Shown: positions 5,930-62,127 of the stretch, in pieces
Position numbering within the stretch: position 1 is the stretch's first letter
Layout of the letters: every line of letters starts with the position of its first letter
Assembly (NCBI GenBank): GCA_019310385.1
Contig: JAFDEK010000017.1
Coordinates: 1 to 64,000, forward strand
DNA length: 64,000 nucleotides
From: Deltaproteobacteria bacterium
Lineage (GTDB): Bacteria; Myxococcota_A; UBA9160; UBA4427
Direction of reading: 5' to 3'
Position numbers and translations under genes: made by a program
Notes under the pieces: model-generated
What the model was told of the DNA's origin: nothing
The model's input: the letters and a program-made list of their open reading frames with translations, nothing else
The model's database searches: none

Positions 5930-6724
5930 ATGATCCGCTTCGGCTTTTCGCTGTTCTTCTGGACCTTCATCACGGCGAGCTCACTTGCGCTCTTCCCGGT
6001 TGCGGTCCTGCTGTGGGCGATGACCGGGCCCTTCGACCGCCGCAAGGTGCTGCTGCACCGCTTCACCTGCTTCTGGGCCTCGCTCTACTCCTGGTTCAAT
6101 CCCGCATGGCCCGTCACGGTGACGGGGCGCGAAAAGATCCCCCGCGATCAGGCCTGCGTGATGGTCGCGAACCATCTCTCCCTGGTCGACATCCTGATCC
6201 TCTTCCGGCTCCAGACCCACTTCAAGTGGGTATCGAAGTCGGAGAACTTCAGAGTCCCCTTCATCGGCTGGAACATGTCCCTCAACGACTACATCCAGCT
6301 GAAGCGCGGAGACAAGGCCAGCGTTCTCCGGATGATGCGCCACTGCGAGCAAACCCTCGCCGCGGGCAGCTCGGTCATGATGTTCCCGGAAGGGACCCGC
6401 TCCCCGACCGGCCGCATGCGCTCCTTCAAGACGGGGGCCTTCGAGATGGCGCTGAAGGCGCGCACCCCCATCCTGCCCATCGTGATCCACGGCACCGCGG
6501 ACGCGCTCCCCAAGCGCGGCTTCGTGCTGCAGGGACGCCACCCCATTCGCATCGAGGTGCTCGACCTCATCCCCTACGAGAGCTTCGCGGACAAGAGCGT
6601 CGAGGAGCTCACCCGGGACGTACGCAACGTAATCGCCGAGCACGTGGTCACGGACGGGGGCGACGCCGTGGCGCCCCGCTCCAAGCGGGCCGCACGAGCG
6701 GCGCGTGCGGCGGCCGAAGCATGA
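5930..6724 (+). CDS. plsC: 1-acyl-sn-glycerol-3-phosphate acyltransferase family protein
   Basis: A 264-aa membrane-associated acyltransferase that would acylate lysophosphatidic acid or a related acceptor in phospholipid synthesis. An N-terminal hydrophobic segment (about residues 5-30) is followed by the catalytic NHLSLVDI (the NHx4D motif) and the glycerophosphate-binding FPEGTRSPTGRMRSF. A third block reads LPIVIHGT. The C-terminus is Arg/Ala-rich. The stop overlaps the ATG of an SDR remnant by 4 bp. No clear SD precedes the ATG; a TAACAT hexamer lies 6 nt upstream. plsC is a family-level name; paralogs are common. Confidence 0.85.
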   Translation: MIRFGFSLFFWTFITASSLALFPVAVLLWAMTGPFDRRKVLLHRFTCFWASLYSWFNPAWPVTVTGREKIPRDQACVMVANHLSLVDILILFRLQTHFKWVSKSENFRVPFIGWNMSLNDYIQLKRGDKASVLRMMRHCEQTLAAGSSVMMFPEGTRSPTGRMRSFKTGAFEMALKARTPILPIVIHGTADALPKRGFVLQGRHPIRIEVLDLIPYESFADKSVEELTRDVRNVIAEHVVTDGGDAVAPRSKRAARAARAAAEA

Positions 6725-6843
6725 TCCTCGACCGCTTCAAGCTCACGGACCGGGTCGCCCTGGTGACGGGAAGCGGCAAGATCCTCCAGGTGGATGGCGG
6801 CACCGAGGCCCCCGCCATCACAGTGCCGACGCCGCCGCTCTGA
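6721..6843 (+). pseudogene. Short-chain dehydrogenase remnant (N-terminus joined to C-terminus)
   Basis: A 40-codon frame whose first half (residues 1-20, ending VALVTGSGK) is a typical SDR N-terminus with the start of the TGxxxGxG loop. Its second half (from ILQVDGGTEAP) is a typical SDR C-terminus, where the DGG element precedes the tail. About 200 central residues, including the catalytic Ser-Tyr-Lys, are missing, and the joint is in frame. The ATG overlaps the plsC stop in ATGA, so the intact ancestor was probably translationally coupled to plsC. No enzymatic function is possible for the fragment alone. Confidence 0.7.
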
Positions 6844-6891
6844 AGCCGCGCCACGCAATTACGAGCCCTGTCACGCGCCCGAGGAGACGCC

Positions 6892-8586: not shown

Positions 8587-8627
8587 GACGCCGCCCGACG
8601 GCGTCCCGCCACGCTCCGCGCAAGCCC

Positions 8628-10321
8628 TCAAGCCCTCGAATCGGACCGGCAGAGCTCGCGACGCAGGAGCTTGCCCGCCGCGTTGCGCGGCAGGCAGTCC
8701 ACTCGATGGAAGCGCAGGGGAACCTTGTAGGCCGCGAGGCGCGCCCGGCAGTGCTCGCGCAGCGCCTCCGCGTCGAGCTCCGCGCCCTCGTGCAACACGA
8801 GCCAGGCAACGGGACGCGCGCCGAAGTCCGCATCCGCCACTCCTGCAACCGCGGCCTCGACGATCGCGTCGTGATCGAGGAGCGCGGCCTCCACTTCGGC
8901 GGGATAGACGTTCTCGCCTCCCGAAACGATGAGATCGTCGCGGCGGTCGAGAACCCGCAGGCGCCCGCCCGCGTCCAGCTCGCCCATGTCGCCGGTGTGG
9001 AGCCAACCCTCCCGAAGCGCCGAGGCGCTGGCGTCGGGACGTTTCCAATAGCCCGACATCACCATGGGGCCGCGCACGCAGATTTCGCCGACCGCATCGG
9101 GCGGCTGCGCGGCGCCTTTCTCGTCGACGATGCGAACTCCGAGGCCAGGCAGGGGATGGAGGCCTGTCGAATCCGCAGCGGCGCGGCCGGGCGGGCGGGT
9201 CGCCACCTGGGAGCAGGCCTCCGTGAGGCCATAGGTGGGCGCCACGGGATAGCCGAGCTCTCGAGCGCGCTCGAGGAGCCCCGGCGACGCGGCCGCGCCA
9301 CCGAGCAGAATGCAGCGGAGCTGCGGGGGCGCAGCCCGCTCGCCGCGTGCGACGAGGAGCCGCTCCAGCATCGCGGGCACCAGAGAGACGATGCTGATCT
9401 GCTCTTCGTCGATCGCGTGGGCAACGGCCTCGGCGTCGAAGCGTTCGTGGATGACCGCGGTCGAGCCCGCCAGGACGCTGCGCAGCAGGATCGACAGCCC
9501 CCCCACGTGGAAGAGGGGCATGCAGAGCAGCCAACGGTCGTCGGCACCGTTTCCGAGCAGGGCCGCGGAGGCGGCCGCGCTGCTGAGGAAATTGCGATGG
9601 CTGAGCAGCGCCCCTTTCGCAAGACCCGTCGTGCCCGAGGTGTAGAGAAGCGCCAGCGGCGCAGTCAGATCGAGGGGCGCTTGCTGGGCGTCTGGGGAGA
9701 AGGGAAGAGCCGGCAGCTCACGCGCCAGCTCCGAAGGCGCGCGCCCATCCGGCAGCTCCAGGGCTTCGAACTGCGGCAGCGCCTCGCAGCTTCGCAGCGC
9801 CACCTCGGACGCATCGTGGATCAGCAGGCGAGCGCCGCTGTCCCGCAGCGGATGAACCAGCTCGGGCGCGGTGAGCCGCAGATTCAAGGGCAGCAGCACG
9901 GCGCCGACCAGGGGCATGGCATGGAGCAGCTCCAGCTGCGCGAGCCCGCTGCCCAGGTGAAGCGCGACCACGTCTCCGCGGGACACCCCGCGCTCCTTCA
10001 GCAGCGCGGCGGCCGCCCGAGCGCGCGCTCCTTCAGCAGCGCGGCGGCCGCCCGAGCGCCCTGGGCGAGCTCACCGTAACGCAGCTTCCGGTCCCCCAGC
10101 TCCGCCGCCACACGATCCGGGGAGAGACCTGCGCGCACCTCGATCCAGGGCCGCCGCCATTGCGCCTCGTCATAGCCTTCGACATCGATTGTGCGATCTC
10201 CCACGCGATGACCCTCGCCCTTTCCCTCGCCCTTCGACTCGCCCTTCGACTCGTCGCGTGACTCGTCTCTTTCCTCAACTACTTCCTCATCTCTTTCCTC
10301 AAGAACAGGCCCGCCCTTCAC
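8628..10321 (-). pseudogene. menE: menE, o-succinylbenzoate-CoA ligase, frameshifted by a 35-bp tandem duplication
   Basis: MenE ligates o-succinylbenzoate to CoA via an acyl-adenylate. Motifs LLYTSGTTGLAKGALLSH (P-loop), YGLTEACSQVAT, GWLHTGDMG and NAAGKLLRREL identify an ANL-family enzyme, and the men operon context identifies MenE. The gene begins at a GTG (10321) overlapping the menC stop in GTGA. After 107 codons the frame ends at 9998 because 35 bp are duplicated; deleting one copy restores a continuous 552-aa reading frame. The distal part could restart at GTG 9986, preceded by AAGGAG. The N-terminal 40 residues are a Glu/Lys/Gly/Asp/Ser low-complexity run not typical of MenE. Either a real pseudogene, a slippage-switchable allele, or an assembly error. 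Confidence 0.85.
9989..10059. repeat. 35-bp direct tandem duplication inside menE
   Basis: Two 36-bp identical blocks, 9989-10024 and 10024-10059, are offset by 35 bp and share one base. The offset is not a multiple of three, so the second copy shifts the menE frame. In the correct frame the block encodes RAAAALLKER, which appears once in each frame on either side. Confidence 0.95.
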
Positions 10322-11496
10322 CCTCGAATCTCCCGAGTGGGTCCGCAGGCGAGAGCCGCGAGTGCACGCGGATCGGGCGCGACGCCGAGCCCCGGCCCGG
10401 GCGGCAGCGCGAGCGAGCCCGCGCGCACGCGGGGAAGCCGGGCGAGGTCCTGCTCGAAGAGGCCCCCCGTCGCGAGACCGCTGGCACGGGGCTCGACCTC
10501 GTCGGGTCGAATGGACGCCGCGAAGTGCAGCGCGGCCGCGACCGCGATGGCGCCGTCGAGAAGAGAGGTCACCACGATCCCCAGGCCCGCGTCGAGCGCC
10601 GCCGCGGCAACCCGGGCGGCGGGAGCCAGGCCACCGGCGGCGCTCGGCTTGATGACCACGACATCCGCGGCCCGGCGGGCCACGACCTCGAGGGCCGCCG
10701 CCTCGACCACCGCCGACTCGTCGGCCGCCAGGGCGATACCCGATTGCGCTCGCAGCCGCGCGAGGGCGTCCAGATCGCTGGCCGCAACGGGCTGCTCCAG
10801 CAGCTCGATATCGAAGGACGAGAGCCGATCGAGTGCTTCGCGCGCGAGGGTCTCGCCCCACCCACCGTTGGCGTCGAGGCGCAGACGGGGCTCCGCCCCT
10901 ATTGCGCGGCGCAGGGCCGCGACCCGCGCTTCGTCGTCAGCCAGACTTCGCGCACCAACCTTGAGCTTCAAGGTGTGGTGCCCTTCCGCGAGGGCGGCGC
11001 GGCCGCTGGCCGCCACCTCCCCGGGCGTGTTGCCCGACACCAGGGCATTGACCGGCAGGACCGAAGGCAGCGCTCCCCCGGACCCTTTGCGAAGCAACCG
11101 GGCCAGGGGCAGGCCCCTCGCCTTTGCGACCAGATCGTGGAGGGCACAGTCCAAGGCCGCTCGCGCGACGGGGGCGTCGGGCGCCGATGCCCCCGCGTCT
11201 CTCAGGTGCCCTTCGATAGGACCGAGCTCCTTTCCGAGCTCCTTCCCGACCTCCTCTCCGACCTCCTTTCCGACGAGAGATGCGGCGAGGCTCGAGAGCG
11301 CTTCGCGGCAGCGCGACGCGGACTCGAGGCCGAAGCCCGCGATGGGAGTCGCCTCGCCGTAGCCCTCGATGCCCGAGTCGCCGACCAGGGTGAGCAAGGC
11401 GCCCTCGCGCAGGTCGACCTCACCGTGGGAAGTCGCCAGGGCACGCACGAGCGCAAGGCGAAAGGGTGTGATGCGTGCGGCGCGGATCCTCACCAC
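10318..11496 (-). CDS. menC: o-succinylbenzoate synthase (enolase superfamily)
   Basis: MenC dehydrates SHCHC to o-succinylbenzoate. Enolase-superfamily residues are in order: LKLKVG (catalytic Lys), LRLDANGGW (metal Asp), ELLEQPV (metal Glu), LAADESAV (metal Asp) and VVIKPSAAGG (second catalytic Lys). The start is ambiguous. GTG at 11496 or 11493 lies just behind GGGAGAGG and begins VVRIRAARITPFRL, the family N-terminus; a GTG at 11565 would overlap menA by 13 bp. An insertion of four near-identical 12-bp units (11222-11269) adds GEEVGKELGKELG to the capping domain. The stop overlaps the menE GTG. Confidence 0.9.
   Translation of the reverse strand: MVRIRAARITPFRLALVRALATSHGEVDLREGALLTLVGDSGIEGYGEATPIAGFGLESASRCREALSSLAASLVGKEVGEEVGKELGKELGPIEGHLRDAGASAPDAPVARAALDCALHDLVAKARGLPLARLLRKGSGGALPSVLPVNALVSGNTPGEVAASGRAALAEGHHTLKLKVGARSLADDEARVAALRRAIGAEPRLRLDANGGWGETLAREALDRLSSFDIELLEQPVAASDLDALARLRAQSGIALAADESAVVEAAALEVVARRAADVVVIKPSAAGGLAPAARVAAAALDAGLGIVVTSLLDGAIAVAAALHFAASIRPDEVEPRASGLATGGLFEQDLARLPRVRAGSLALPPGPGLGVAPDPRALAALACGPTREIRG
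11222..11269. repeat. 12-bp x 4 in-frame tandem repeat in menC
   Basis: Units CCGAGCTCCTTT, CCGAGCTCCTTC, CCGACCTCCTCT and CCGACCTCCTTT follow one another directly. On the coding strand they encode tandem (K/E)E(V/L)G tetrapeptides. Confidence 0.92.
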
Positions 11497-11552: not shown

Positions 11553-12455
11553 TCAGAGCCACCACCCCAGGGCCAGGAGCAGCGAGTAGAGCAGCGAGAG
11601 CTGCGCGGTCCCCGCCAACGCCTCGTTGAGGGTGGGACCGTCACTGTGCCGGAACACAGTGTCGATCAGCTTCCAGGCCTTGGGGAGGCTGAGCAGCGGC
11701 AGCATGACCCAGAGAGAACGCCCGAAGGAGAGCGAGAATACCGGCAGCACGACATAGGCGAAGGCCACGAGAGCCAGGTACTCCAAACGCGCGCCCCGGG
11801 GTCCCAGCCGCACCGCCAGGGTGTGCTTGCCCGCCTTGCGGTCCGTGTCGATGTCACGAACGTTGTTCACCACCAGGATCGCGGTCGCGAGCGCGCCCAC
11901 GGGCAGCGACGCCGCGAAGGCCGCGGCGCTGAGCTCGAGGGTCTGCACGTAGCTCGTCCCCATCACCGCCACGAGACCGAAGAAGAAGAAGACCGCGGGG
12001 TCGCCCAGGCCCCGGTAGCCGAAGGGCCAGGGCCCGCCCGTGTACGCGATGGCGGCCGCAATGGCGAGGAGACCCACGCAGACGATGGGCCACCCGCCCA
12101 CCGCCGCGAGGTAGAGGCCTACCCCCACCGCGGCCCCGAAGACCACCAGCATGCCGCGGCGCATCTCGCCGGGGCTGAGCAGGCCCAGCTGGGCCGCCCG
12201 AGGCGGGCCAATACGCTCTTCGGTGTCGGCTCCCTTTTCGTGGTCGAAGAGGTCGTTGGCGATGTTGGAGCCGATCTGCAGCAGCAGTGCCCCCGCAAGG
12301 GCTGCGAGGGCGGGCAACACCCGTGCACCGCCCTGGGACGCCGCGACCGCGGTACCCACTGCCACGGGCGCCGCCGCCACGGGGAGGGTGCGCGGGCGGA
12401 TGGCGAGCAGCCAGATCTGCCGCTTGGAAAGGCTGGTGAAATCGGGCGCACTCAT
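11553..12455 (-). CDS. menA: 1,4-dihydroxy-2-naphthoate polyprenyltransferase
   Basis: A 300-aa integral membrane UbiA-superfamily prenyltransferase that attaches the polyprenyl tail to 1,4-dihydroxy-2-naphthoate. The first Asp-rich, Mg-diphosphate-binding motif is NIANDLFDHEKGAD; the second is NNVRDIDTDRKAGK. WLLAIRPRTLP at the N-terminus is characteristic of MenA. Eight or nine hydrophobic helices are visible. The start ATG at 12455 overlaps the menH stop (ATGA). The same frame is open upstream through menH into menD, but that stretch antisenses no MenA homology and is only an open frame. Confidence 0.92.
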   Translation of the reverse strand: MSAPDFTSLSKRQIWLLAIRPRTLPVAAAPVAVGTAVAASQGGARVLPALAALAGALLLQIGSNIANDLFDHEKGADTEERIGPPRAAQLGLLSPGEMRRGMLVVFGAAVGVGLYLAAVGGWPIVCVGLLAIAAAIAYTGGPWPFGYRGLGDPAVFFFFGLVAVMGTSYVQTLELSAAAFAASLPVGALATAILVVNNVRDIDTDRKAGKHTLAVRLGPRGARLEYLALVAFAYVVLPVFSLSFGRSLWVMLPLLSLPKAWKLIDTVFRHSDGPTLNEALAGTAQLSLLYSLLLALGWWL

Positions 12456-13420
12456 GAGCTCTCTTCCTCGTCTCTCTTGCTCGATCCATCCCGAGCCCTG
12501 CGCTCTGCATCGACATCGTTCTCTGCATCGACATCGTTCTCGGCATCGACATCGTCGAAGAAAGCGCGAGCCACGCGCCCGAAGGCCGTCGGGTTCTCGA
12601 GGTGGGCGGCGTGGCCCGCCGCCGGGATGACTTCCACCCGCCCTCGCGGCAGGGCCCCGGCGAGCTCCCCCGCCAGGGCGCGAAACTTCGCGTCCTCTTC
12701 CCCTGTAACGAGACAAACAGGCGCGGAGATGCGCCGCAAATCGCCGTGGAGGGGAGGCATGGCGCCCGTCCCCATGCCGCGCAACGAGAGCGCGAGGCCC
12801 TCGGGCCGGCACTCGAGACGCTGGGCACGGGCCTTCGCGAGCTGCGCCTCGCCCAGCCTCCGTTGACTCGCGAAGAGGGGAAGCGCCATCCAATAGTCGA
12901 CGAAGGCCTCGAGCCCCTGGTCGAGGATACGCGCCGCCAGGGCCTCGTCGCTGCGCCTGCGCTCGCCGCGCGCCTGCGGGTCGGCGATCCCCGCAGTCGC
13001 ACCGACCCCCAGCGCGGAGCGGAAGGCCTCGGGATGGGCGGCGCAGAGCGAGAGGGCAACCCGTCCGCCCATGGAGTAGCCGAGCAGATGGGGACGCTCG
13101 AGGCCGAGGGCGTCGACGAGCTCGCGCAGCTGCGCGACGCAACGCTCCATGGTGTAGTGCACAGGGTCTTCGGGCACGTCGCTGGCGCCGTGGCCGACGA
13201 GGTCGACGCAGACGCTGCCGCGCTCGCCACGGAAGTGCTCTGCCACTCCGGCCATGCTCTCCAGCGAGCCCGTAAAACCGTGAAGGACGAGGACCGGTGC
13301 GGCCTCCGCTCCGACCGCCGGCGCGACGCGCACGTTGAGCTCGACGCCCTGCACTGCGAGCCGGCCGTCGACCGCCCCGGCCACTGTGCCCGCGAGTCGG
13401 CTCAATCCACCTGCCGTCAC
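12452..13420 (-). CDS. menH: 2-succinyl-6-hydroxy-2,4-cyclohexadiene-1-carboxylate synthase (MenH-type alpha/beta hydrolase)
   Basis: An alpha/beta-hydrolase fold enzyme that removes pyruvate from SEPHCHC to give SHCHC. LVLHGFTGS forms the oxyanion loop, LLGYSMGGRVAL holds the nucleophile Ser, CLVTGEEDAKF the acidic residue and IPAAGHAAHLENP the His. The GTG start at 13420 would overlap a stop in the +1 frame of menD (GTGA), like other junctions of this operon; an in-frame ATG at 13477 lies inside menD. The C-terminal 30 residues are low complexity (repeated DVDAEN) from an 18-bp repeat and extend beyond the usual family end. Confidence 0.87.
   Translation of the reverse strand: MTAGGLSRLAGTVAGAVDGRLAVQGVELNVRVAPAVGAEAAPVLVLHGFTGSLESMAGVAEHFRGERGSVCVDLVGHGASDVPEDPVHYTMERCVAQLRELVDALGLERPHLLGYSMGGRVALSLCAAHPEAFRSALGVGATAGIADPQARGERRRSDEALAARILDQGLEAFVDYWMALPLFASQRRLGEAQLAKARAQRLECRPEGLALSLRGMGTGAMPPLHGDLRRISAPVCLVTGEEDAKFRALAGELAGALPRGRVEVIPAAGHAAHLENPTAFGRVARAFFDDVDAENDVDAENDVDAERRARDGSSKRDEEESS
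12507..12560. repeat. 18-bp x 3 in-frame tandem repeat at the 3' end of menH
   Basis: Three copies of GCATCGACATCGTTCTCT, the third diverged in its last 6 bases. They encode the repeated hexapeptide DVDAEN in the MenH C-terminal tail. Confidence 0.93.
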
Positions 13421-15140
13421 GCGCCTTCGCCCCCCGCAACACCGACCCCGGCCCCGACTTCTCGAGCGCACTCGCATAGTCCTCCCACGAGCTCACCCTG
13501 CAGTACGCAGCGCCCGCGAGCTCGGCTGCGGGCCGCAGATCGACGCCGTGGGGCGTAGTAAAGAGCTCCTCGAAGTGGACCGACTCGCCGTGCTGCGCGA
13601 TGGGGAGGAAGGAGAAGATCCCGCCGCCGTCGTTGTTCAGGACCACGATCGTCCCGCGCAGCCCGTGGCGGCGGGCCGCCAGCAGGCCGCCGAGGTCGTG
13701 CAGCAAGGCGAGGTCACCGGTGAGGAGCACAGCGGGCCCGACACCGGCCGCCGCGGCGCCCAATGCGCTCGACACCATGCCGTCGATTCCGTTTGCGCCG
13801 CGGTTGGAGAGGACCCGCGGGCCGAGCTCGGCAAGGGGCATGACGGCGTCGAGGTCGCGCACAGGCATGCTGTTGGAGACGTAGAGGATCGCGTCGTCGG
13901 GAAGCCGTGCGCAGAGCTCACGGACAGCGCGCGGCTCGAAGAGCCTGCTCTCATCTCCCAGGCCCCGGTCGACCGCCCGCGCCGCCGCCCCCTCCGCCGC
14001 CTCGAAGTCCGCGAGCCAGGCGCTCTCCCGTGACCCACCGAGGCCTTCCGCCGCACGGCGGCACAAGAGCGCTGGATCCACCGACCAGTGCTGGGTCGCC
14101 AGGTGGCTGGGGTCGTTCCACGCCCCGGCTGGATCCACCAGCAGCAGGTGCTCCGGTGGCCGGGCCTCCAGCCAGAGGCGAAAGGCCTTGCTCACCGGAG
14201 AGCCGCCGATGCGAAGCACCACATCAGGCGCGTGGGCCCGGGCAAAGGCCGCGTCCCGCAGGATCAGGTCTCCCGTGGCGAGGATGGGCGCGCCGGCCAC
14301 GTGGGCTCCGGCGCGCAGCTGGGAGCAGGGATCGGCAAGCACCGGCCAGCCCGCTGCTCGCGCAAGGGCGGCGACGGATTCGCACAGCTCGACGTCCGCG
14401 TCCATGGGACCGCAGGCGATGAGGCCGCGAGGCCTGCCGCGAGCCAGCTCGACCAGCTCGGCCACCTGGGCGTCCTGGGGCGGCACCCGCGATCGACCGA
14501 TTTCCGTGTAGGCGCGACCCTCCGCGCGCTGCAGCTCGCTCGCGAGAGCCACGGATTCGGCCGCCTCCCCGGCGAGCTCCCAGGCGGGATCGAGGGGCTC
14601 GCGCAGCGGCCAGTTGAGATGCACCGGTCCCGGCGGAGACCCGGTCGCCTCGGCGACCGCACGACAGGCGAGCATTCCCCCATGACGCAGCAGCTCCTCA
14701 CCGCTGCCATCGGGTGTGGGAAGCTCCGCGAACCAGCGCAGGTGGGAGCCGAAGATCCGCGACTGATCGATGGTCTGCCCGGCCCCCCACTCCCGCAGCT
14801 CGGCGGGGCGGTCGGCGCTCAGCACGATGAGCGGCACGCCGGCGTAGTGGGCCTCGACGACCGCGGGCAGGAAGTTCGCGACCGCGGTGCCCGAGGTGCA
14901 GACGAGGGCCACCGGCTCACGACTCGCCTTGGCGAGCCCCAGGGCGAAGAAGGCCCCCGAGCGCTCGTCGACGTGGACCCAGGTACGCAGCGCCTCGCAG
15001 CGCGCCGCGCACACCGCGAGGGGCGCCGAACGCGAGCCGGGAGACACGCACACGTGTCGCACCCCGGAGCGCGCGAGCTCGTCGAAGAAGCGCGCCGCGA
15101 GTGCGTAGCTGGCGCCGGGCTTGGAGTCGCTGGCGGACAT
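13417..15140 (-). CDS. menD: 2-succinyl-5-enolpyruvyl-6-hydroxy-3-cyclohexene-1-carboxylate synthase with abnormal 3' end
   Basis: A ThDP-dependent enzyme that joins isochorismate and the 2-oxoglutarate-derived succinyl unit. The N-terminal pyrimidine-binding domain shows VSPGSRSAPL and SGTAVANFLPAVVEA. The C-terminal ThDP/Mg site shows LLTGDLALLHDLGGL and VVLNNDGGGIFSFL. Homology runs to about residue 560 (SSWEDYASALEKSG), then stops abruptly. The usual terminal 25-30 residues are missing and the frame stays open, without a stop, for 1195 codons as far as the end of menA. A stop in the next frame at 13417-13419 overlaps the menH GTG, so a frameshifting indel near 13430-13470 is likely. The end given assumes that stop. 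Confidence 0.85.
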
Positions 15141-15146: not shown

Positions 15147-16784
15147 CTAGATCTCCGTCAGCGGCGCGAGCAGCGCGCGCAGCTTGAGCCGGGTCTCGCG
15201 CAGCTCGTCTTCGGGCTGCGAAGCCTCGACGATCCCGGCGCCGGCGAAGAGCCGCGCCTCGCCGCCCCGGATGTGCGCGGAACGCAGCGCGACGCGAAAG
15301 CTCCCGTCACCGCGGGCCGTGACGAAGCCGACCGGGCCCGCATACCAACCCCGGTCGAGCCCCTCCCAGCGATCGATCCACGCCTGCCCCGCGGCGCGGG
15401 GAGCCCCGCCCACCGCGGGCGTCGGGTGCAGGCGTGCAACCAGATCGAGGACGCCGGGACGGTCTTCGAGGGAGGCGGCCAAACGCCCGGCCAGGGGTGT
15501 CTCCAGGTGCTGTATGCCCTCGAGGCGCAGCAGGACCGGGGTCTCCGGCCCCTCGAGCTCGCCGCACAGGGGCTGCAGCGCCTGCTCGATGGCACGCCGC
15601 ACGATGGCGTGCTCCTCCTGGTCCTTCTTGCGCTCGCGCAGCTCACGCCCGATGCGCTCGTCCTCCTCGGGGCTGCGGCCCCGGGGCGCCGTCCCCGCCA
15701 GTGCGACGGTCTCGACGCGGTCTCCGGCGAGCTCCACCAGGCGCTCGGGCGAAGCCGACACGAAGTAGTGACCGCCCCTGCGCAGCGCCAGGATCGCGCA
15801 GGAGGGATAGGTTCGGCGCAGGGTGTCGAGGAAGTGGGGCAGATCGAAGTCGCCGTCGTGGGAAACGTGCAGCGAGCGGGCCAGGACGACCTTCTCGAGC
15901 TCGCCGCGGGCGATGGCCTCTCGGGCGGCCTGCACCTGGGCGCAGTAGCGCGCGTGGCTGCGATCGGATCGAACCCGATATTCGGGCCCGGACTCGCCGG
16001 CACCGGCATGGCCCAGAGCCGGGGGAAAGCCGCGCCAACAGGCCTGCTTGTCCGGCGCGCCCATCGTCGAGGCCGCCCCCGAGGCGGGCGTGGCCTCTCC
16101 GTTGACATCCCTGAGATTGACATCCCTGAGATCGACACTCTCGAGATTGACACTCTTGAGCGTCTCCTCGAAGCGCGCCCGGAGGCGGGTGGCCTCGCGC
16201 CCGGGATCGTCGCCCTTGGCGATGCGGCCGCTGGCGCTAAGCCAGGCATCGTTCCCCTGCCGAAGGTAGACGCGTTCGGGCAGCACGAGCCGGCCGGCCC
16301 CGAAGGCCTCCCACTCGCCACTCCCGGCGCCCGGCTCCCCGCTGAAGCTGAATCCCCCGACGAGCAGGGGCCCGGTCCAGCCCTGCACCTGCCCCGCGCC
16401 CTCTTCCGAGCCCTTCTCCGCACTCGCATCCGCGCCCTTCTTCTCTCCGACCGCCGCCCCGAGGTCCACCAGTTGGTGATCGGCAAAGAGCTCCCGGGAA
16501 AGCCGGGCCGCCTCCTCGACGCGATGGGCTCCGCGGCTCTCGATAGCGTGAAGCCGGCCGAGCCCCGCGATGGCGAGCCCGCGGGCGGGCTCCTCCCAGT
16601 AGAAGGCGTCTTCCGCCTGGCAGTCCGCGAAGAGCGCCAGGGCGTCACACGGCGCGACCGGGGCGCGCAGGGAGAGCCACTGGGGACGCCCCGTTTGCGC
16701 CGCTCGCTGCGCCCCGCTGTCGAAGAGCCCATCCACGGCCTCGCGCCCTCGAGCGATGATCTTGGCCACCCGAGCCTCCCTCAT
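15147..16784 (-). CDS. menF: Isochorismate synthase
   Basis: A 545-aa chorismate-binding enzyme converting chorismate to isochorismate, the first committed menaquinone step. The C-terminal catalytic half shows GELEKVVLARS, FVSASPERLVEL, VALAGTAPRG, ARLHPTPAVGG, YAGPVGFVTARGDGSF and AGAGIVEASQPEDE, matching the MenF/EntC/DHBA synthase Mg and chorismate sites. It is longer than typical (about 430-450 aa), partly because of a central low-complexity stretch with a 15-bp repeat (16102-16161) giving VNLESVDLRDVNLRD. The start overlaps the menG stop in ATGA; menD begins 6 bp after its stop. Confidence 0.92.
   Translation of the reverse strand: MREARVAKIIARGREAVDGLFDSGAQRAAQTGRPQWLSLRAPVAPCDALALFADCQAEDAFYWEEPARGLAIAGLGRLHAIESRGAHRVEEAARLSRELFADHQLVDLGAAVGEKKGADASAEKGSEEGAGQVQGWTGPLLVGGFSFSGEPGAGSGEWEAFGAGRLVLPERVYLRQGNDAWLSASGRIAKGDDPGREATRLRARFEETLKSVNLESVDLRDVNLRDVNGEATPASGAASTMGAPDKQACWRGFPPALGHAGAGESGPEYRVRSDRSHARYCAQVQAAREAIARGELEKVVLARSLHVSHDGDFDLPHFLDTLRRTYPSCAILALRRGGHYFVSASPERLVELAGDRVETVALAGTAPRGRSPEEDERIGRELRERKKDQEEHAIVRRAIEQALQPLCGELEGPETPVLLRLEGIQHLETPLAGRLAASLEDRPGVLDLVARLHPTPAVGGAPRAAGQAWIDRWEGLDRGWYAGPVGFVTARGDGSFRVALRSAHIRGGEARLFAGAGIVEASQPEDELRETRLKLRALLAPLTEI
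16102..16161. repeat. 15-bp x 4 in-frame tandem repeat in menF
   Basis: Units TTGACATCCCTGAGA (twice, identical), TCGACACTCTCGAGA and TTGACACTCTTGAGC lie end to end. They encode a five-residue pattern V-N/D-L-x-S/D in MenF, in a linker outside the catalytic motifs. Confidence 0.93.
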
Positions 16785-17473: not shown

Positions 17474-18288
17474 CGCCATTGGATCTCCAGTCGCGAGGAT
17501 TCCACCGACGCGATGGCGCTCTCGAGCGCGGCGGCCTCGCCCTTGGCCCGCATGCGCTCGATGGCCCGGTTCACCAGGGTGCGTTGAAAATGCAGTGCGA
17601 CCAGCCGCGTCACCTGGGGCAGCAGCAGCCGGAAGGCCTCGCTGATCCCCTGGGCGTCGTCGCCCCGGGCACCCGCCTTGCCCATGCCCTTGCGAACGTC
17701 CTTGCGAACATAGTCGTCGAAGAGGTCGATCGCGGCCTCGCTGGTCTCGGCCGCGCTGCGGGCATGGGTGACGGCGAGGTTCAGCAGCTCGTCGAGGGGC
17801 AGCCCGGCTTCGAGGATTGCCAGGCCGGCCCGGGCCATCTCGAGGTCGGCGGCGGAGTAGCGCTCGTCACCCGCGACCACGACCGGCTCGAGCAGGCCCG
17901 CCGATCGCGCCGCGCCCAGGATGGCTTCGGGAACACCCGACTCGGCGGCAAGCTCCGGGAGACTCAGGCTGCGCTCTCCCACGCTCTCTCGGGCCAGCGC
18001 GGCGAGCAGCGCAGCGTCGGCACCGGCGTCCGCGGCCTGCAGCGGCGCGGCGCCAGCACCCGAATCTCCATCTTCCGCGGCCCCCACGACCCGGCGGATC
18101 TGAGCCAGGCTGAAGCCCTGCTGGAGTAGCGCCCGCACCTGCCGCAGACGATCCAGATGAGCCTCACCGTAGAGCGCGACCCGCCCCTGCCGGCGTGGCG
18201 GCGGGATGAGCCCGCGCCCCTGATAGAAGCGCACCGTGTCCACCGTGACCCCGCCCGCTCGGGCGAGGGCCTCGACGCGATATTCCAT
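17470..18288 (-). CDS. MerR-family regulator leading the men operon
   Basis: A 272-aa protein with an N-terminal MerR winged helix-turn-helix (residues 1-70: YRVEALARAGGVTVDTVRFY, then LIPPPRR and LRQVRALLQQGFSLAQIRRVV). A long helical C-terminus without metal-binding Cys could be an effector or dimerisation domain. It contains a second short helix-turn-helix-like stretch around residues 105-160. It is first in the men operon and its stop overlaps menG. Its promoter contains a perfect 12-bp palindrome in the spacer, so autoregulation and control of menaquinone genes are plausible. The ligand is unknown. A 12-bp repeat (17687-17710) gives VRKDVRKG. Confidence 0.8.
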   Translation of the reverse strand: MEYRVEALARAGGVTVDTVRFYQGRGLIPPPRRQGRVALYGEAHLDRLRQVRALLQQGFSLAQIRRVVGAAEDGDSGAGAAPLQAADAGADAALLAALARESVGERSLSLPELAAESGVPEAILGAARSAGLLEPVVVAGDERYSAADLEMARAGLAILEAGLPLDELLNLAVTHARSAAETSEAAIDLFDDYVRKDVRKGMGKAGARGDDAQGISEAFRLLLPQVTRLVALHFQRTLVNRAIERMRAKGEAAALESAIASVESSRLEIQWR

Positions 18289-30590: not shown

Positions 30591-32587
30591 TGGCCTCCCC
30601 CGCCCGAGCGGGGAGGGGGCTTCTTTGCGCCGCCCCGGGGCTTCGCTGCCATCGCGGGCTTGGGCGCCTTCGCGAGCTTCTCGGCTGGAGAGTGCTTCAC
30701 CTTGTTGACGGGCTTGGCGGCCAGCCGGCGGCCACGCGAGGTGGGGCTCGTGGGCTCCAGGATGGAGAGATCGAACTCCCCTGAGGTGACCCGCTGCCGC
30801 TTCATGGGCGTGAAGCCCAGCTCGACGACGCCGGCGGTATCGGGATCGATCAGCAGGTCGAGCTTGCCGGCACGCTCCTTGATGAGCTGGTACTCGCGAT
30901 TGCGGATGAAGCGGTGGATCTTGATTCGCTTTCCGAAGGCGATCTTCTTCTTGTCGCGGTAGACCACGACGAATTCGACGCCGGCTTCGGGGTCGAAAGG
31001 CGCACAGTGGACCAGCTTGCCGGAGAAGAACACCTTGTCGACCGGGGGCATGACGCGGTAGGTCCCGTCGCTCGAGATCCCGAGCACGAGATCGAACTCG
31101 CTGACGCTCATCCTGAAGTGATCGCCCCGGACCGCGGAGCCGAAGAAGCCGGACTCGCGGTCGTAGCTCAGCTTGATGTTCTGGCGCGCCACCGCCTTCT
31201 TGTCGACCGCCTCGATGCGGGTGACCTCGGTGCGCCGGGGGTAGTCGTCTCCGTACTTCTCGATGAGGTCCTCGACGTAGCTGACGGTGGTCTTCGTCAT
31301 GTTGCGCAGCCTGCTGTTCAGCTTCTTGATCTGCCGCACGATGTCGTCGACCTCGCGGCGGTTCTTCTCGATGTCGTAGGCGGAGATGCGGCGGATTCGC
31401 AGCTCCAGGAGGCGCTTCACGTCCTCCTCCACCATGGGGCGCACGAAGAGCTTCTTGAACTTCGCCATGCCCTGCATGACCTCGCTCTTCACGGCCTCGT
31501 CGGTGGTGGCCTCCTCGATGCGCTTGTAGACGCGGTTTTCCACGAAGATCTGTTCGAGGGTGAGCCAGTGCTGGCGATCGACGAGCTGTCCCCGCTCGTA
31601 TTCGAGCTCCGCCTTGAGCTGCGCCTTGAGCTGCACTGTGAGCACTTGCAGGATCTCGCTCACCGTCATGGAGATGGGGCGCCGGCCGCTCACGACGTTC
31701 AGGTTCGACGACACCGAGACACTGCAGTCCGTGTAGGCGTAGAGCTGGGGGATCACCTCGTCGGCGTTCACGCCCCGGGCGAGGGTGAGCTCGATCTCGA
31801 CCTTGTCCGTGGTGAAGTCGTCGATGGAGGCCAGCTTCACCCGGCCCTTCTGGACCGCGGCCTCGATGGAGGCGATGAGGCTCTCGGTGGTGGTCCCGTA
31901 GGGCACCTCCTCGATCACCACGTGCTTGGCATCCTTCTCCCGGATGCGAGCGCGCACCTCCACCTTGCCCCGGCCGTCATCATACGCCGCCACGTCCATG
32001 AGGCCGCCCTGCTGAAAATCGGGCAGCAGCTCGACGGCCTCTCCCCCCAGCAGCGCGATCTGGGCCTGCCACAGCTCCTTCAGGTTGTGGGGCAGGATCT
32101 TCGTCGACAACCCGACCGCGATGCCCTCGGTTCCCAGCATGAGGACCACCGGGAGCTTCGAGGGCAGGAAGACCGGCTCCTTGTTGCGGCCGTCATAGCT
32201 CGGGATGAACTCGGTCAGGGGCTCGAAGAAGAGGGTGTCGAGAGCCAGGGGCGTGAGGCGGCACTCGATGTAGCGAGCCGCCGCGGCGGGGTGCCCGGTC
32301 AGGAGATTGCCGAAGTTCCCCTGGCGGTCGATGAAGTAGTCCTTGTTCGCCAGCACTACGAGGGCGTCCGCGATGGAGGCGTCGCCGTGGGGGTGCAGCT
32401 TCATGGTCTCGCCGATGACGTTGGCGACCTTGTGGTAGCGCCCGTCGCTCATCGTGAAGAGGGTGTGGAGGATGCGCCGCTGCACCGGCTTCAGCCCGTC
32501 GCGCAGGTCGGGTATCGCGCGATCCAGGATGAAGTAGCTCGCGTACTCGATGAAGTGCTCGTGCATCAGGTCTTCGAGCTGGGCCAT
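30575..32587 (-). CDS. parC: DNA topoisomerase IV subunit A (ParC/GyrA family)
   Basis: A 670-aa type IIA topoisomerase cleavage subunit for decatenation of chromosomes. The active-site Tyr106 lies in AAARYIECR. The quinolone-resistance region reads HPHGDASIADAL. KPVQRRIL and the coiled tower MVEEDVKRLLELRIRRISAYD are typical. The C-terminal beta-pinwheel is short, consistent with ParC rather than GyrA. The last 60 residues are a Lys/Pro/Ala-rich basic tail. The parE gene ends... upstream on the same strand, 49 bp away, so the two form a parE-parC unit. Confidence 0.92.
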   Translation of the reverse strand: MAQLEDLMHEHFIEYASYFILDRAIPDLRDGLKPVQRRILHTLFTMSDGRYHKVANVIGETMKLHPHGDASIADALVVLANKDYFIDRQGNFGNLLTGHPAAAARYIECRLTPLALDTLFFEPLTEFIPSYDGRNKEPVFLPSKLPVVLMLGTEGIAVGLSTKILPHNLKELWQAQIALLGGEAVELLPDFQQGGLMDVAAYDDGRGKVEVRARIREKDAKHVVIEEVPYGTTTESLIASIEAAVQKGRVKLASIDDFTTDKVEIELTLARGVNADEVIPQLYAYTDCSVSVSSNLNVVSGRRPISMTVSEILQVLTVQLKAQLKAELEYERGQLVDRQHWLTLEQIFVENRVYKRIEEATTDEAVKSEVMQGMAKFKKLFVRPMVEEDVKRLLELRIRRISAYDIEKNRREVDDIVRQIKKLNSRLRNMTKTTVSYVEDLIEKYGDDYPRRTEVTRIEAVDKKAVARQNIKLSYDRESGFFGSAVRGDHFRMSVSEFDLVLGISSDGTYRVMPPVDKVFFSGKLVHCAPFDPEAGVEFVVVYRDKKKIAFGKRIKIHRFIRNREYQLIKERAGKLDLLIDPDTAGVVELGFTPMKRQRVTSGEFDLSILEPTSPTSRGRRLAAKPVNKVKHSPAEKLAKAPKPAMAAKPRGGAKKPPPRSGGGGQGALF

Positions 32588-35576: not shown

Positions 35577-35589
35577 CGAAGCGCCTCCC

Positions 35590-35611
35590 GACTCCACCCC
35601 GACTCCACCCC
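35590..35611. repeat. 11-bp x 2 tandem repeat upstream of the PfkB kinase
   Basis: GACTCCACCCC occurs twice in direct succession, just upstream of the GGAGG of the kinase gene. One copy lies in what would be its 5' leader. Confidence 0.85.
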
Positions 35612-35750
35612 GAAGCCCACCGCGAACTTGAGAGCAGACGATTCGTAAATAGCTGATATGCAAGGTCTTCCAAAGTATGCGCAGATTTCCTGCCACATCG
35701 GGCCCCGGGGCACCACGAATGCACACAGAGACCAGAAGAGGCCCTGCCCG

Positions 35751-37932: not shown

Positions 37933-37974
37933 TGTACGGATCGAGTTGTACGGATCGAGTCGTACGGCTCGGGT
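37933..37974. repeat. 14-bp x 3 tandem repeat between hydrolase and dus genes
   Basis: TGTACGGATCGAGT is repeated exactly (37933-37946, 37947-37960), then a diverged copy CGTACGGCTCGGGT follows (37961-37974). A related GTACGA lies upstream at about 37915. It lies in the divergent promoter region and could bind a regulator cooperatively. Confidence 0.9.
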
Positions 37975-38078
37975 CGTTCTCACTTCTTCTCGTTCGCCCA
38001 CGCCGACATCTTGAGGTAGCCGTCCCATTCTGCCCCGAGACAGGCCACGCGGGCCGCCTTCTGGTATCTAGTGGCCCG

Positions 38079-51867: not shown

Positions 51868-52204
51868 GCTCCTCTATCCCCCACCGCCGTGAGAGTCGCC
51901 TACGAATCCAGGTAATTTTCTTCGTTTCCTGAAAAATCCATTCGCGTGTAATCCATCTGTAACCCAGATTGGGTCATCGTCCCGTTTGGCAAGAGGATCC
52001 GGCCCGACGGTCAGCGGGCTGCTCTTGCTCCCGCGAGGCGGCATGCTGAGGGGAAGAGAGTGAGGTCGCAGTTTTCCCAGAGCTGCGACATTGAGATACT
52101 CGCCCTTTTGCCGAGCTGCCGATCTCGGCTCCTCCCGGCGCGACCGCGTTCCGCCGGGAGGAGCCCCTTCGCCCTATCCCCTTCGCCCCATCCCCTGAAC
52201 CGGA
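51868..52204. other. 337-bp intergenic region with inverted and direct repeats
   Basis: No gene seen. It contains the overlapping inverted repeats ATCTG-TAACC-CAGAT and ACCCA-GAT-TGGGT (51953-51974) in a lower-GC stretch, a candidate terminator or operator. A 14-bp direct repeat (CCCCTTCGCCCTAT then CCCCTTCGCCCCAT) lies at 52164-52191, just beyond the 3' end of the PfpI gene. Confidence 0.5.
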
Positions 52205-52806: not shown

Positions 52807-52851
52807 CCTCCTGCGCTGCGACCTCCTGGGCCGCGACCTCCTGCGCCGCAA
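52807..52851. repeat. 15-bp x 3 tandem repeat upstream of the PfpI gene
   Basis: CCTCCTGCGCTGCGA, CCTCCTGGGCCGCGA and CCTCCTGCGCCGCAA are consecutive. On the gene strand each contains GCAGGAGG or similar, so the array multiplies Shine-Dalgarno-like GGAGG sequences in the 5' leader. Confidence 0.9.
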
Positions 52852-52981: not shown

Positions 52982-53344
52982 ATGGCAAGTGGAGGGGAAG
53001 CGCGCCGCCTGGGGCTGATCGAGTCCTTCGTCGCGGCCAGGGACCAGTGTCCCAGCGGTCGCGTGCGCTCCTTGGCGTCGGCGGCCCTCGAGGCGGTGAA
53101 GCGGGACAAGCAGGCGGCCCTGCACGAGCAGGCCTTTCTGCTGCTCAGCGCCACCCGGGGCTGGCGCGGCGAGCGGGCCGACCAGGTGCGGCAGTCGCTC
53201 GCGGCCTTCCTCGAGGAAACACCGCAACTTGACCGAGGGGACACGGTGGAGAGCCGAGGGGACGCGGTGAATGGGCGAGGGGGCGCGGTGACTCCCTCCG
53301 ACAAGGCACCCGGGGGCGACCCCGAGCGGGAGGCTGGAGACTGA
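52982..53344 (+). CDS. Hypothetical protein, 120 aa
   Basis: Not recognised. The first 80 residues are helical and basic (RRLGLIESFVAARDQCPSGR; LEAVKRDKQAALHEQAFLLL). The tail contains three 7-residue repeats RGDTVES, RGDAVNG and RGGAVTP from a 21-bp tandem triplication. It has no signal peptide or membrane segment. The stop at 53344 and the next ATG at 53346 are adjacent, so it is translationally coupled to the next gene, and the two probably act together. Confidence 0.6.
   Translation: MASGGEARRLGLIESFVAARDQCPSGRVRSLASAALEAVKRDKQAALHEQAFLLLSATRGWRGERADQVRQSLAAFLEETPQLDRGDTVESRGDAVNGRGGAVTPSDKAPGGDPEREAGD
53234..53296. repeat. 21-bp x 3 in-frame tandem repeat
   Basis: CGAGGGGACACGGTGGAGAG plus C is followed by two diverged copies (53255-53275 and 53276-53296). 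They encode RGDTVES-RGDAVNG-RGGAVTP near the C-terminus of the 120-aa protein. Confidence 0.9.
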
Positions 53345-54533: not shown

Positions 54534-54545
54534 GGCGCGGGCCGC

Positions 54546-56676: not shown

Positions 56677-57100
56677 TCACCTCCGCGCCAAGGCGCGAGA
56701 CCAGCGAACCACGGGAGACGCGGACCTCGCCGGATCGACCCCACGCGGGTGCGATCCGGCGCAATTCGGGCTTCGGATCGCGACGCGATCCCGCTATGAT
56801 GAGCAGGCCTGTCAGGCAAAGCGCGGTACCGGGGGGGCCGCACGCGATCGACTCACGCAGCCAGATCACGCAGCCAGGGTCGTGGATCCAGGGTCATGGA
56901 TCCATGAATCATGGATCGAGGCGATTCGGCCCGGGACGTCACACGGCGACCCCGCAGCGGGACCGCTGCAGCTCCGGCCCGAGCCGGGTCGGGCGCTCGG
57001 GAATGAACCCACGACGATGATCGACCCGAGAGGGTGATCGATCCACGAGAGCGAAAGGTCGGGGAAATTGGAAGCTCGAGACAGTCGAGGCAACGAGTCC
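56677..57100. other. 424-bp gene-free region with degenerate short tandem repeats
   Basis: No gene is supported. At 56852-56920 direct repeats follow one another: TCACGCAGCCAGA twice, then a GTCGTGGATCCAGG / GTCATGGATCCATG / AATCATGGATCGA series of about 14-bp units containing GGATCC or GGATCG. The remainder is GC-rich and unstructured. It precedes the DUF3348-like operon and may contain its promoter. Confidence 0.6.
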
Positions 57101-58015: not shown

Positions 58016-58064
58016 GCTTCCAAATGCACGAGAAGACATCATGAGAAGACACGAGGAGGAATCC

Positions 58065-59830: not shown

Positions 59831-59954
59831 CCCCGAGCCAGCAAGCAGTCGCCTCGCGAGCCGAAGCGACGCGACCGCCCTCCTACAAGCACTGCGCGGC
59901 GCAAGTAGAAAGCGCGGCTGACTGAAGCGAAGGGGCGGCTACCATGTCGCTGCC

Positions 59955-60791
59955 ATGACCGCCCGCAGAACCAGGACCGCCCGCAAGACCAAGCGAGCCA
60001 CTCGAGCCGAGCAGGCCGAGAAGTACGCCCTCTACGAGGCCGCGGTACAGGAGCCCGCCGACGAGGTCCGGCTCATTCAACGCGTATTCAAGCGCCACCA
60101 CGGAAGGCCCGCGCGACTGCTACGCGAAGACTTCTGCGGCACGGCGGCCCTGTCCTGCGCGTGGGTGCGCAGCCACCACGAGAACCTCGCCTGGGGGATC
60201 GACATCGATCCGGAGCCCCTCGAATGGAGTCGCAGCCACAACGTCAGCGCTCTGGGCCCAAGGCGCGCGGATCGCCTCACCCTCGTGGAGGGCGATGTCC
60301 TGGACGCGCGTCACCGGCGGGTCGACGTCACGGCCGCCTACAATTTCTCCTATCTGGTCTTTCGTGAGCGTCCCCAGCTGCTGCGCTACTTCCGCAAGGT
60401 GCACAGCGGTCTGGCACGCGCCGGGCTCTTCATGATGGACCTCTATGGTGGCCCCGACGCCCAGGCCGCCCTCAGCGAGCGCAGCGAGATCGAGGGCTTC
60501 GACTACGTCTGGGAGCAGGCCCGCTTCGACCCCGTCCACCAGCGCGCCCTCAACTACATCCACTTCGAGTTTCCGGACGGCAGCTCCCTCGAACGCGCCT
60601 TCACCTACGACTGGCGTCTCTGGGGCCTGCCCGAGCTGCGGGACCTCCTGCACGAAGCGGGCTTCCGCCGCACGGAGGTCCTCTGGGAGGGCTGCGACCC
60701 GGGCAGCGAAGAGGGCAACGGCGTCTACCGCCCGGTGGAGAGCGCGGACGACGACCCCGCATGGATCGTCTATCTAGTGGCGGTGAAGTGA
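59955..60791 (+). CDS. Class I SAM-dependent methyltransferase, 278 aa
   Basis: A methyltransferase with a Lys/Arg/Thr-rich N-terminus (residues 1-20, nucleic acid-like basic). SAM motif I is LLREDFCGTAALSCAW, followed by WGIDIDPEPLEWSRSHN and AAYNFSYLVFRERPQLLRYF. MMDLYGGPDAQ resembles a motif IV region. The acceptor is unknown. The ATG at 59955 lacks a good SD; TACCAT lies 9 nt upstream. It lies 124 bp after the DUF operon on the same strand. Confidence 0.75.
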   Translation: MTARRTRTARKTKRATRAEQAEKYALYEAAVQEPADEVRLIQRVFKRHHGRPARLLREDFCGTAALSCAWVRSHHENLAWGIDIDPEPLEWSRSHNVSALGPRRADRLTLVEGDVLDARHRRVDVTAAYNFSYLVFRERPQLLRYFRKVHSGLARAGLFMMDLYGGPDAQAALSERSEIEGFDYVWEQARFDPVHQRALNYIHFEFPDGSSLERAFTYDWRLWGLPELRDLLHEAGFRRTEVLWEGCDPGSEEGNGVYRPVESADDDPAWIVYLVAVK

Positions 60792-60811
60792 GCTAGTGGC
60801 GGTCAAGTGAG
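60774..60811. repeat. 19-bp x 2 tandem repeat at the 3' end of the methyltransferase gene
   Basis: CTAGTGGCGGTGAAGTGAG (60774-60792) is followed immediately by a copy with one change (60793-60811). The first copy contains the methyltransferase stop codon, so the last codons and stop have been duplicated. Confidence 0.95.
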
Positions 60812-60925
60812 GCCGGACGCTCTCTGAGATTCACGCCAGATTCATGACTCGGGGTCCGCGAAGGGCGGCTTTCCACGCGGCCGTGGGGCCGTTAGATTGA
60901 CAGGCCCGCCATCATCCCCGCCAGG

Positions 60926-60964
60926 CCAGAGGCAGGCACCAGAGGCAGGCACCAGAGGCAGGCA
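60926..60964. repeat. 13-bp x 3 tandem repeat upstream of an acyl-CoA dehydrogenase gene
   Basis: CCAGAGGCAGGCA is repeated three times exactly, ending 18 bp before the ATG at 60983. Each copy contains GAGG, but the functional ribosome-binding site is the AGAGGAGAG just after the array. Confidence 0.95.
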
Positions 60965-60982
60965 AGAGGAGAGCCATCCCGC

Positions 60983-62098
60983 ATGAATTTCGACTTCTCC
61001 GAAGACCAGAAGCTCCTGCAGCATACCGCCCGTGAGTACCTGGCAGAGCACGCACCCCTCGCCCTGTGTCGCGAGGTGCTGGAGACCGACATCCCCTACG
61101 CGAAAGACCTGTGGAAGGGCGCGGCCGAGATGGGATGGCTCGGTGCCGCGATCCCCGAGGAGTACGGCGGCGCCGGCTTCGGCCACCTCGAGCTGGCCGT
61201 CATCGCCGAGGAGGTCGGGCGCGCCCTCGCGCCGATCCCCTTCGGCTCGAGCGTCTATCTCGCCACGGAGGCGCTGCTCGTCGGGGGCAGCGCGGAGCAG
61301 AAGCAGCGCCTGCTTCCCAAGCTCGCCTCGGGCGCGGCCATCGGCACCTTCGCCCTGGTGGAGAAGCCGGGACAGAACGCGGTGGAGGGAGTCGAGACCA
61401 CCTTCGCAGAGGGCCAGCTGCGCGGCAGCAAGGGGCCCGTGCTGGACGGCGACGTGGCGGACTTTGCCGTCGTGGCCGCCCGGGGCGACGGGGGCGTCCA
61501 GCTCGTCATCGCGGAGCTCGGCGGCGAAGGCGTGGAGCGAACGCCGGTCACGACCTTCGACCCGAGCCGCTCGGCGGCCAACATCCACTTCGACGGAACC
61601 CCGGCGGAGCTCCTCGGCGAGGCGGGAGACAACAGCTCCCTGATCGACCGCGTCCTCGACCGCGCCGCCGTGCTGACCGCCTTCGAGCAGCTCGGCGCTG
61701 CCGAGCGCGCCTTTTCCATTACCAAGGAATTCATCGAGGGCCGCTACGCCTTCGGCCGACCCGTCGCTTCCTTCCAGGCCGTCAAGCACCGCTTGGCGGA
61801 TCTGTGGTGCGAGATCCAGCTCGCCCGCTCCAACGCCTACTACGGCGCCTGGGCACTCAGCAACGAGGCCCCCGAGCTCGACGTGGCGGCCTGCATCAGC
61901 CGGATCCAGGCCAGCACGTCCTTCGACCTGACGACCATCGAGATGATCGAGCTCCACGGCGGCGTCGGCTTCACCTGGGAGTACGACTGCCACCTCTTCT
62001 ATCGGCGCGCCAAGCTGCTGAGCGCCTGGCTGGGCACGGTGGCGAGCTGGCGCGACAAGCTCGTCGACCGCGTCGAAGCCCGAGAGAGCGCGGCCTGA
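60983..62098 (+). CDS. Acyl-CoA dehydrogenase, FadE27/29-like subunit
   Basis: A 371-aa acyl-CoA dehydrogenase. The N-terminal helical domain starts MNFDFSEDQKLLQHTAREYL; LGAAIPEEYGGAGFGHLEL is the family block, and LHGGVGFTWEYDCHLFYRRA the C-terminal one. The expected TExxxGSD segment is weak (VEKPGQNAVEG), so FAD and substrate contacts may be split with the partner subunit. The next gene encodes a second acyl-CoA dehydrogenase; adjacent unequal pairs form alpha2-beta2 enzymes in steroid or branched-chain oxidation (Mycobacterium FadE26/27 and 28/29 style). GAGGAGAG lies upstream of the ATG. Confidence 0.87.
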   Translation: MNFDFSEDQKLLQHTAREYLAEHAPLALCREVLETDIPYAKDLWKGAAEMGWLGAAIPEEYGGAGFGHLELAVIAEEVGRALAPIPFGSSVYLATEALLVGGSAEQKQRLLPKLASGAAIGTFALVEKPGQNAVEGVETTFAEGQLRGSKGPVLDGDVADFAVVAARGDGGVQLVIAELGGEGVERTPVTTFDPSRSAANIHFDGTPAELLGEAGDNSSLIDRVLDRAAVLTAFEQLGAAERAFSITKEFIEGRYAFGRPVASFQAVKHRLADLWCEIQLARSNAYYGAWALSNEAPELDVAACISRIQASTSFDLTTIEMIELHGGVGFTWEYDCHLFYRRAKLLSAWLGTVASWRDKLVDRVEARESAA

Positions 62099-62127
62099 GC
62101 GAGCCCCAAGCCTGAGCGAGCCCCAAG
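62094..62127. repeat. 17-bp x 2 tandem repeat across an acyl-CoA dehydrogenase stop codon
   Basis: CCTGAGCGAGCCCCAAG occurs twice in a row. The first copy contains the TGA of the upstream gene, so the stop and its 3' context were duplicated. Confidence 0.95.

Follow-up and report, generated by a model that had tools for sequence, protein, structure and literature searches.

Yeast rad27 (FEN1) mutants and E. coli mutants in the 5' nuclease of polA are duplication mutators, producing tandem duplications of tens of bp that are bounded by short direct repeats. A different spectrum is seen in E. coli topA R168C, where de novo tandem duplications of 2-19 bp arise independently of existing repeats; the birth of new tandem repeats from non-repeated DNA is described there as unresolved (PMC6954433). 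Bacillus and other bacteria carry constant-size tandem repeats, in which the unit has a fixed length (20-21 or 52 nt) and is present four or more times (Subirana and Messeguer, PMC8161180). Here we describe an excess of short tandem duplications in an uncultured, myxobacterium-like bacterium (Myxococcota), starting from a window that comprises bases 1-64000 of a 64,398-bp contig (C99). The source is a 4.93-Mb metagenome-assembled genome (MAG) in 215 contigs, 88% complete and of 68% GC. The excess extends over the genome, and it suggests a mutation process unusually prone to duplication.

Among known phenomena, the topA R168C mutator comes closest, as both show a genome-wide excess of short two-copy, head-to-tail duplications. 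There, the units are 2-19 bp long, do not depend on repeats, and follow from one causal substitution; here, they are at least 11 bp long, share microhomology at the junctions, and form an evolved pattern in a wild genome in which the equivalents of R168 and R35 are intact. Given the size floor, the microhomology and the intact residues, we do not claim membership in the topA R168C type. As with the constant-size repeats of Bacillus, some species are rich and others poor, and the sequences differ between sites, but the units here range from 11 to 63 bp and are mostly present in two copies. In-frame repeats within genes and non-triplet units outside them are also features of variable-number tandem repeats, minisatellites and phase-variable loci, from which the present arrays differ in being mostly two-copy. 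Overall, the finding appears to work like the spectrum of a duplication mutator written into a wild genome, as read from one MAG.

Density in the window, the genome and its relatives

A duplication was counted as perfect when the run of matches at lag p was at least p. By this strict measure, the genome has 109 perfect units of at least 11 bp in 989 kb (11.0 per 100 kb), compared with 18 in 675 kb (2.7 per 100 kb) in 11 relatives with GC above 0.64, and 24 in 1261 kb (1.9 per 100 kb) in 80 parE-centred loci from several phyla; the named ParE relatives are MAGs labelled Myxococcota, Myxococcales or Deltaproteobacteria. With units of at least 12 bp, the values are 15.6 per 100 kb in the window, 9.3 in the same genome outside the window (55 in 594 kb), 10.3 in a fresh 331 kb of the genome (34 units), and about 2 in GC-matched relatives from the same family and order. 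Thus, the excess over relatives is about 4- to 7-fold for units of at least 11 bp, and is specific to this lineage.

The original prediction was of an unusual, window-wide excess. The density is indeed unusual, as neither shuffled sequence nor related genomes reach it; the window itself, on the other hand, is not special within its genome. It was considered as a hotspot and rejected as such, with 10 arrays observed against 6.4 expected (P=0.11), and arrays are spread evenly across 59 stretches of the genome (chi2/df 1.11, P=0.26). The excess is therefore a property of the genome and not of the window.

Could chance, or low-complexity repetition in a genome of 68% GC, produce such counts? Units of 7-10 bp, and many imperfect in-frame arrays, are similarly dense in relatives, and one array of the window, in parC, is ancestral (see below). 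Against this, three dinucleotide shuffles of the window gave no perfect duplications with units of at least 10 bp, where the window has 11, and no perfect units of at least 12 bp; relatives of equal or higher GC (G003, G006, G007, G013 and G017) have 1.7-5 per 100 kb at the 11-bp threshold, far from the value observed here. This explanation is already largely refuted, and we regard it as extremely unlikely.

Unit size, reading frame and junctions

The excess begins sharply at units of 11 bp. In noncoding DNA, perfect units of at least 11 bp number 38 in 103 kb, as opposed to 5 in 93 kb in relatives, which is about a 7-fold difference, while units of 7-10 bp are equally common (24 and 23 in the same lengths). 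Coding DNA behaves likewise: 12-bp units are three times as frequent as in relatives (31 vs 9), and 9-bp units show no excess (32 vs 41). Unit lengths of 10, 13 and 16 seemed under-represented among the perfect noncoding arrays, but the shortage became less marked once imperfect ones were counted too, 13-bp units then being common, and it was taken as noise.

Reading frame separates the arrays within genes from those outside. Perfect coding units of at least 11 bp are multiples of 3 in 54 of 65 cases, compared to 17 of 38 in noncoding DNA, so that the predicted preponderance of triplet units in coding DNA holds genome-wide. When imperfect arrays are included, the coding excess is limited to multiples of 3 (226 vs 113 in relatives, over a similar total length), and noncoding DNA contains 127 arrays in 103 kb, or about one per 800 bp, vs 21 (raw count) in relatives. 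Arrays are about five times as dense in intergenic as in coding DNA. Since only in-frame units are in excess within genes, and arrays are so much denser between them, selection acting after frequent duplication, as had been suggested from the window, is well supported. Noncoding units are slightly lower in GC than the flanking DNA.

Array density is a balance between gain and loss, and duplications might be formed at a normal rate and lost more slowly here, through less slippage contraction or a weaker deletion bias. The many decayed copies, with a median identity of 89% in noncoding arrays, suggest long retention, as such slower loss would have it. The noncoding fraction, however, equals that of the relatives (10.4% and 10.0%), and the sharp limit at 11 bp is more easily explained by a formation step. 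On balance, slower loss seems rather unlikely, while deserving to be kept in mind.

Most perfect arrays are short in copy number, with fewer than 2.5 copies in 76 of 99 and about three copies in only 4. We measured the junction as the run of matches that continues beyond the unit, and compared it to simulated duplications at random places in the same genome. The mean overlap is 2.2 bp in coding arrays vs 0.9 bp simulated (P about 1e-8) and 3.6 bp in noncoding arrays vs 0.8 bp simulated (P about 1e-5); allowing for later mutation leaves the excess unchanged. A partial third copy, and not original microhomology, may account for some of the larger overlaps in noncoding arrays. In being bounded by short direct repeats beyond the 0.8-0.9 bp expected, the duplications resemble those of rad27 and polA mutants.

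Junction microhomology above that of random duplication also argues against fill-in of staggered breaks followed by end-joining by Ku and LigD. Of the 21 genomes searched for Ku (PF02735), this one, with its 88% completeness, and 17 of 20 relatives had no match, which leaves only 3 with one; of the explanations considered here, end-joining strikes us as the least credible.

Array sequences are unrelated between sites. A dispersed repeat family was sought and rejected, in that no 14-mer is over-represented beyond gene motifs. The exception is a loose 32-36 bp 'GCGTATCCTCGCC' group, the only one that recurs in tandem. Tandem units of 32-36 bp with a GCGTATCYTCGCC-like core are found at L104:1152-1254, L090:16403-16492, L105:10314-10395 and L117:4025-4100; some of their halves are hairpin-like, and they perhaps represent a small dispersed repeat family.

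Arrays of the window and their genes

The gene content of the window is that of an ordinary chromosome, with a menaquinone cluster (menE, menC, menD, UbiA, menF and UbiE types), fumarase, ParC/ParE, HSP90, MetH and acyl-CoA dehydrogenases; RNA families and tRNAs were looked for in the window and none were found. Tandem Repeats Finder (TRF), with a score of 30 as the lower bound, recovered 16 of the 17 near-perfect arrays listed in the original prediction at the places given and with units nearly as given. The remaining one, at 17687 (12 bp in two copies), exists, but is weak. The label of near-perfect was generous for the arrays at 11222 (87%), 16102 (86%), 36975 (84%) and 53234 (84%). Arrays are listed below with unit length, copy number and, in brackets, identity; all are from TRF unless stated otherwise, and gene assignments rely on Pfam and, for the first array, also on translations.

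9989-10059, minus strand: 35 bp x 2.0, perfect, splits a menE-like (AMP-binding) gene
10214-10253, minus strand: 12 bp x 3.3 (89%), in-frame, N-terminal extension of the menE-like frame
11222-11274, minus strand: 12 bp x 4.4 (87%), in-frame, menC-like gene of the enolase superfamily
12503-12555, minus strand: 18 bp x 2.9 (97%), in-frame, menD...UbiA open frame, between the recognised domains
16102-16152, minus strand: 15 bp x 3.4 (86%), in-frame, menF-like gene, upstream of the chorismate-binding domain
17686-17709, minus strand: 12 bp x 2 with one mismatch (listed at 17687), below TRF score 30, background level
31604-31634, minus strand: 12 bp x 2.6 (94%), in parC, same length in 69/69 relatives by alignment
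35587-35613, minus strand: 11 bp x 2.5, perfect, unannotated N-terminal extension (or leader) of a PfkB-family kinase
35910-35951, minus strand: 12 bp x 3.5 (96%), N-terminal extension or leader of the PfkB-family kinase
36920-36956, no strand: 15 bp x 2.5 (95%), spacer that separates a PfkB-type kinase from an alpha/beta hydrolase
36968-37017, no strand: 24 bp x 2.1 (84%), same spacer
37934-37977, no strand: 14 bp x 3.1 (90%), 5' end of the hydrolase frame, between divergent hydrolase and Dus genes
52164-52196, no strand: 14 bp x 2.4 (94%), intergenic, adjoins the 3' end of a DJ-1/PfpI gene
52807-52849, no strand: 15 bp x 2.9 (89%), intergenic leader of the DJ-1/PfpI gene
53233-53291, plus strand: 21 bp x 2.8 (84%), small open reading frame of uncertain coding status
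56853-56921, no strand: 13 bp x 1.9 (perfect), then 14 bp x 3.4 (80%), intergenic
60774-60811, plus strand: 19 bp x 2.0 (94%), overlaps the stop codon of a methyltransferase-like gene
60926-60964, no strand: 13 bp x 3.0, perfect, intergenic, upstream of an acyl-CoA dehydrogenase
62093-62127, plus strand: 17 bp x 2.1, perfect, overlaps the stop codon of an acyl-CoA dehydrogenase

Positions 11553-15140 form one open frame of 1195 amino acids, with a MenD-type TPP enzyme at residues 15-561, a UbiA prenyltransferase at 924-1158, and about 360 residues without a Pfam match between them; this may be a fusion or a read-through. The PfkB-family kinase frame (34692-36275) has a 240-residue N-terminal extension without a Pfam match, with several tandem arrays inside; the true start may be further in, in which case the arrays are leader DNA.

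For 11 of 64 perfect coding arrays, alignment to relatives was possible over both flanks. In 7 of the 11, one case being weaker, the extra copy is absent from half or more, or nearly all, of the aligned relatives, and several of these seven depend on one or two matches. The clearest case is a 15-bp in-frame duplication (GDNYV-GDNYV) in an acyl-CoA dehydrogenase-like frame (L085:8714-8745), which is absent in 15 of 16 aligned relatives. The remaining testable arrays show no gap in most or all relatives. A counter-example within the window is the parC array at 31604, which, as its constant length in the alignment shows, is ancestral and not a recent duplication.

The 35-bp copy in the menE-like gene (8628-10321) lies exactly at a break between two frames. 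Pfam AMP-binding positions 3-44 match the upstream frame (9998-10321; weakly, E=0.13), and positions 44-384 match the downstream frame (8628-9986). Either the split is a mutation of very recent date, and perhaps reversible, or the assembly is at fault here; as in phase-variable loci, the copy could in principle revert. A perfect copy that breaks a gene that should matter, in a fragmented MAG, is what would be expected if unmerged contig overlaps or chimeric joins had been written twice by the assembler. Such errors are blind to reading frame, and this is at odds with the in-frame bias of the coding units and with the fivefold higher intergenic density. If the 11 coding arrays that are out of frame represent two thirds of such a frame-blind class, the class would comprise at most about 16 of the 65, so a biological origin is required for the remaining coding arrays and for the excess in noncoding DNA. 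In addition, imperfect copies or a partial third copy are seen in many arrays, and the 11-bp limit is not at the k-mer scale. Assembly artefact is accordingly a very improbable source of the excess.

Repair enzymes and the origin of the duplications

The original prediction was that the density may reflect a particular repair or replication pathway. No lesion that would fit such a role was found in PolA, MutS, exonuclease VII (ExoVII) or TopA. Loss of the PolA 5' nuclease was ruled out: PolA is full length, its 5' nuclease domain is present, and PF02739 matches two genes, the second being of a 5'-3' exonuclease type. In this respect the genome differs from the rad27 and polA mutants, as far as activity can be predicted from sequence. 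MutS1 is likewise intact, with its ATPase motifs kept, and ExoVII and TopA were found in the genome.

The absence of mutL was striking at first. MutL has no match above the cut-off in this genome and is present in 56 of 60 members of the class, as though mismatch repair had been lost and the genome were a mutator. That candidate was dropped when miaA and engA, the conserved neighbours of mutL, were found to be missing from the assembly too (the best match, L231, resembles Era and lies beside an RNase III-like frame). As engA is essential in model bacteria, the mutL gap is probably an absent block of the assembly. Two other genomes without a MutL match above the cut-off (G050 and G041) have no excess in their small samples. 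The repeat spectrum also argues against mismatch-repair loss. Microsatellites of 1-6 bp are not raised compared with relatives; in particular, homopolymers number 122 vs 117 per 100 kb at length 6 or more and 9.7 vs 11.2 at 8 or more. Mismatch repair handles loops of a few bases, not of 11 or more. Along with the intact MutS1, this leaves mismatch-repair loss a very unlikely cause.

An altered topoisomerase I or flap-processing enzyme is somewhat less improbable, albeit still distinctly unlikely. The size range of the duplications overlaps that of topA R168C (PMC6954433), and TopA of this genome (L238) has F at its position 160, just before the catalytic TDLDREGEA motif, where all 9 canonical relatives have Y. 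No other own-specific change was noted close to an active site, and from alignment we would give this one little weight. The equivalents of E. coli R35 and R168, substitution of which turns E. coli into a duplication or deletion mutator (PMC6954433), are conserved, with the SSVGHVRDLP and NAQQARRFLDR motifs intact; the E. coli events reach down to 2 bp and are independent of existing repeats, unlike those described here; and the PolA 5' nuclease domain is present. Loss of the lysine-rich C-terminal tail of TopA, which appeared own-specific in the alignment, was ruled out because the contig ends exactly there.

RecJ, otherwise nearly universal, gave no match (TIGR00644) when 21 genomes of the order were searched, including this one and a single-contig assembly, although control genomes do match. 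SbcD (TIGR00619) is above the cut-off in only 2 of the 21. The whole order may lack RecJ and SbcCD, which are repeat-stabilising nucleases, and this background could matter. As a cause they were rejected: being undetected in nearly all relatives too, they cannot explain the lineage difference.

We consider it probable that the excess reflects lineage-specific, microhomology-primed slippage duplications that are filtered by selection. Two-copy structure, unrelated array sequences, excess microhomology and a size floor near one helical turn all fit backward slippage of a strand, which we infer to be the molecular step. In such a scheme, independent and mostly two-copy duplications would arise, or persist, unusually often throughout the chromosome. 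The growing strand would slip backward, and its 3' end would re-pair at a short microhomology behind the polymerase, upstream by roughly one helical turn (11 bp) or more; the extruded loop, too large for mismatch repair, would then be copied in. Purifying selection would remove frame-breaking copies from genes and retain in-frame ones, while intergenic DNA would accumulate copies freely.

Several points weigh against the slippage explanation. Among the genes checked (mutS, mutL, polA, Ku, ExoVII, TopA, RecJ and SbcCD), no own-specific loss or change that raises slippage was established. The junction overlap is small in absolute terms, and is zero in 13 of 71 two-copy arrays. The same counts would result if duplications were lost faster in relatives or more slowly here. 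The genus is represented by one genome, an 88%-complete MAG of which about 20% was sampled, and the division into coding and noncoding DNA comes from a home-made gene caller based on codon usage.

A broader and more tentative possibility, which we would not rate as likely, is that a wild lineage has maintained a long-lived, heritable, duplication-biased process. Duplications of at least 11 bp, joined at microhomology, would lengthen proteins in frame, and would come about by an undescribed change in replication or repair, distinct from mismatch-repair, flap-endonuclease and TopA-R168C mutators.

With duplications made or kept about 4-7 times more often than in relatives, and with a clear size limit and junction signature, this genome can serve as a natural comparison in the search for the responsible step. 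The in-frame insertions are material for the study of how proteins gain length. If the cause is found, the duplication spectrum could serve as a genome-readable marker of repair state.
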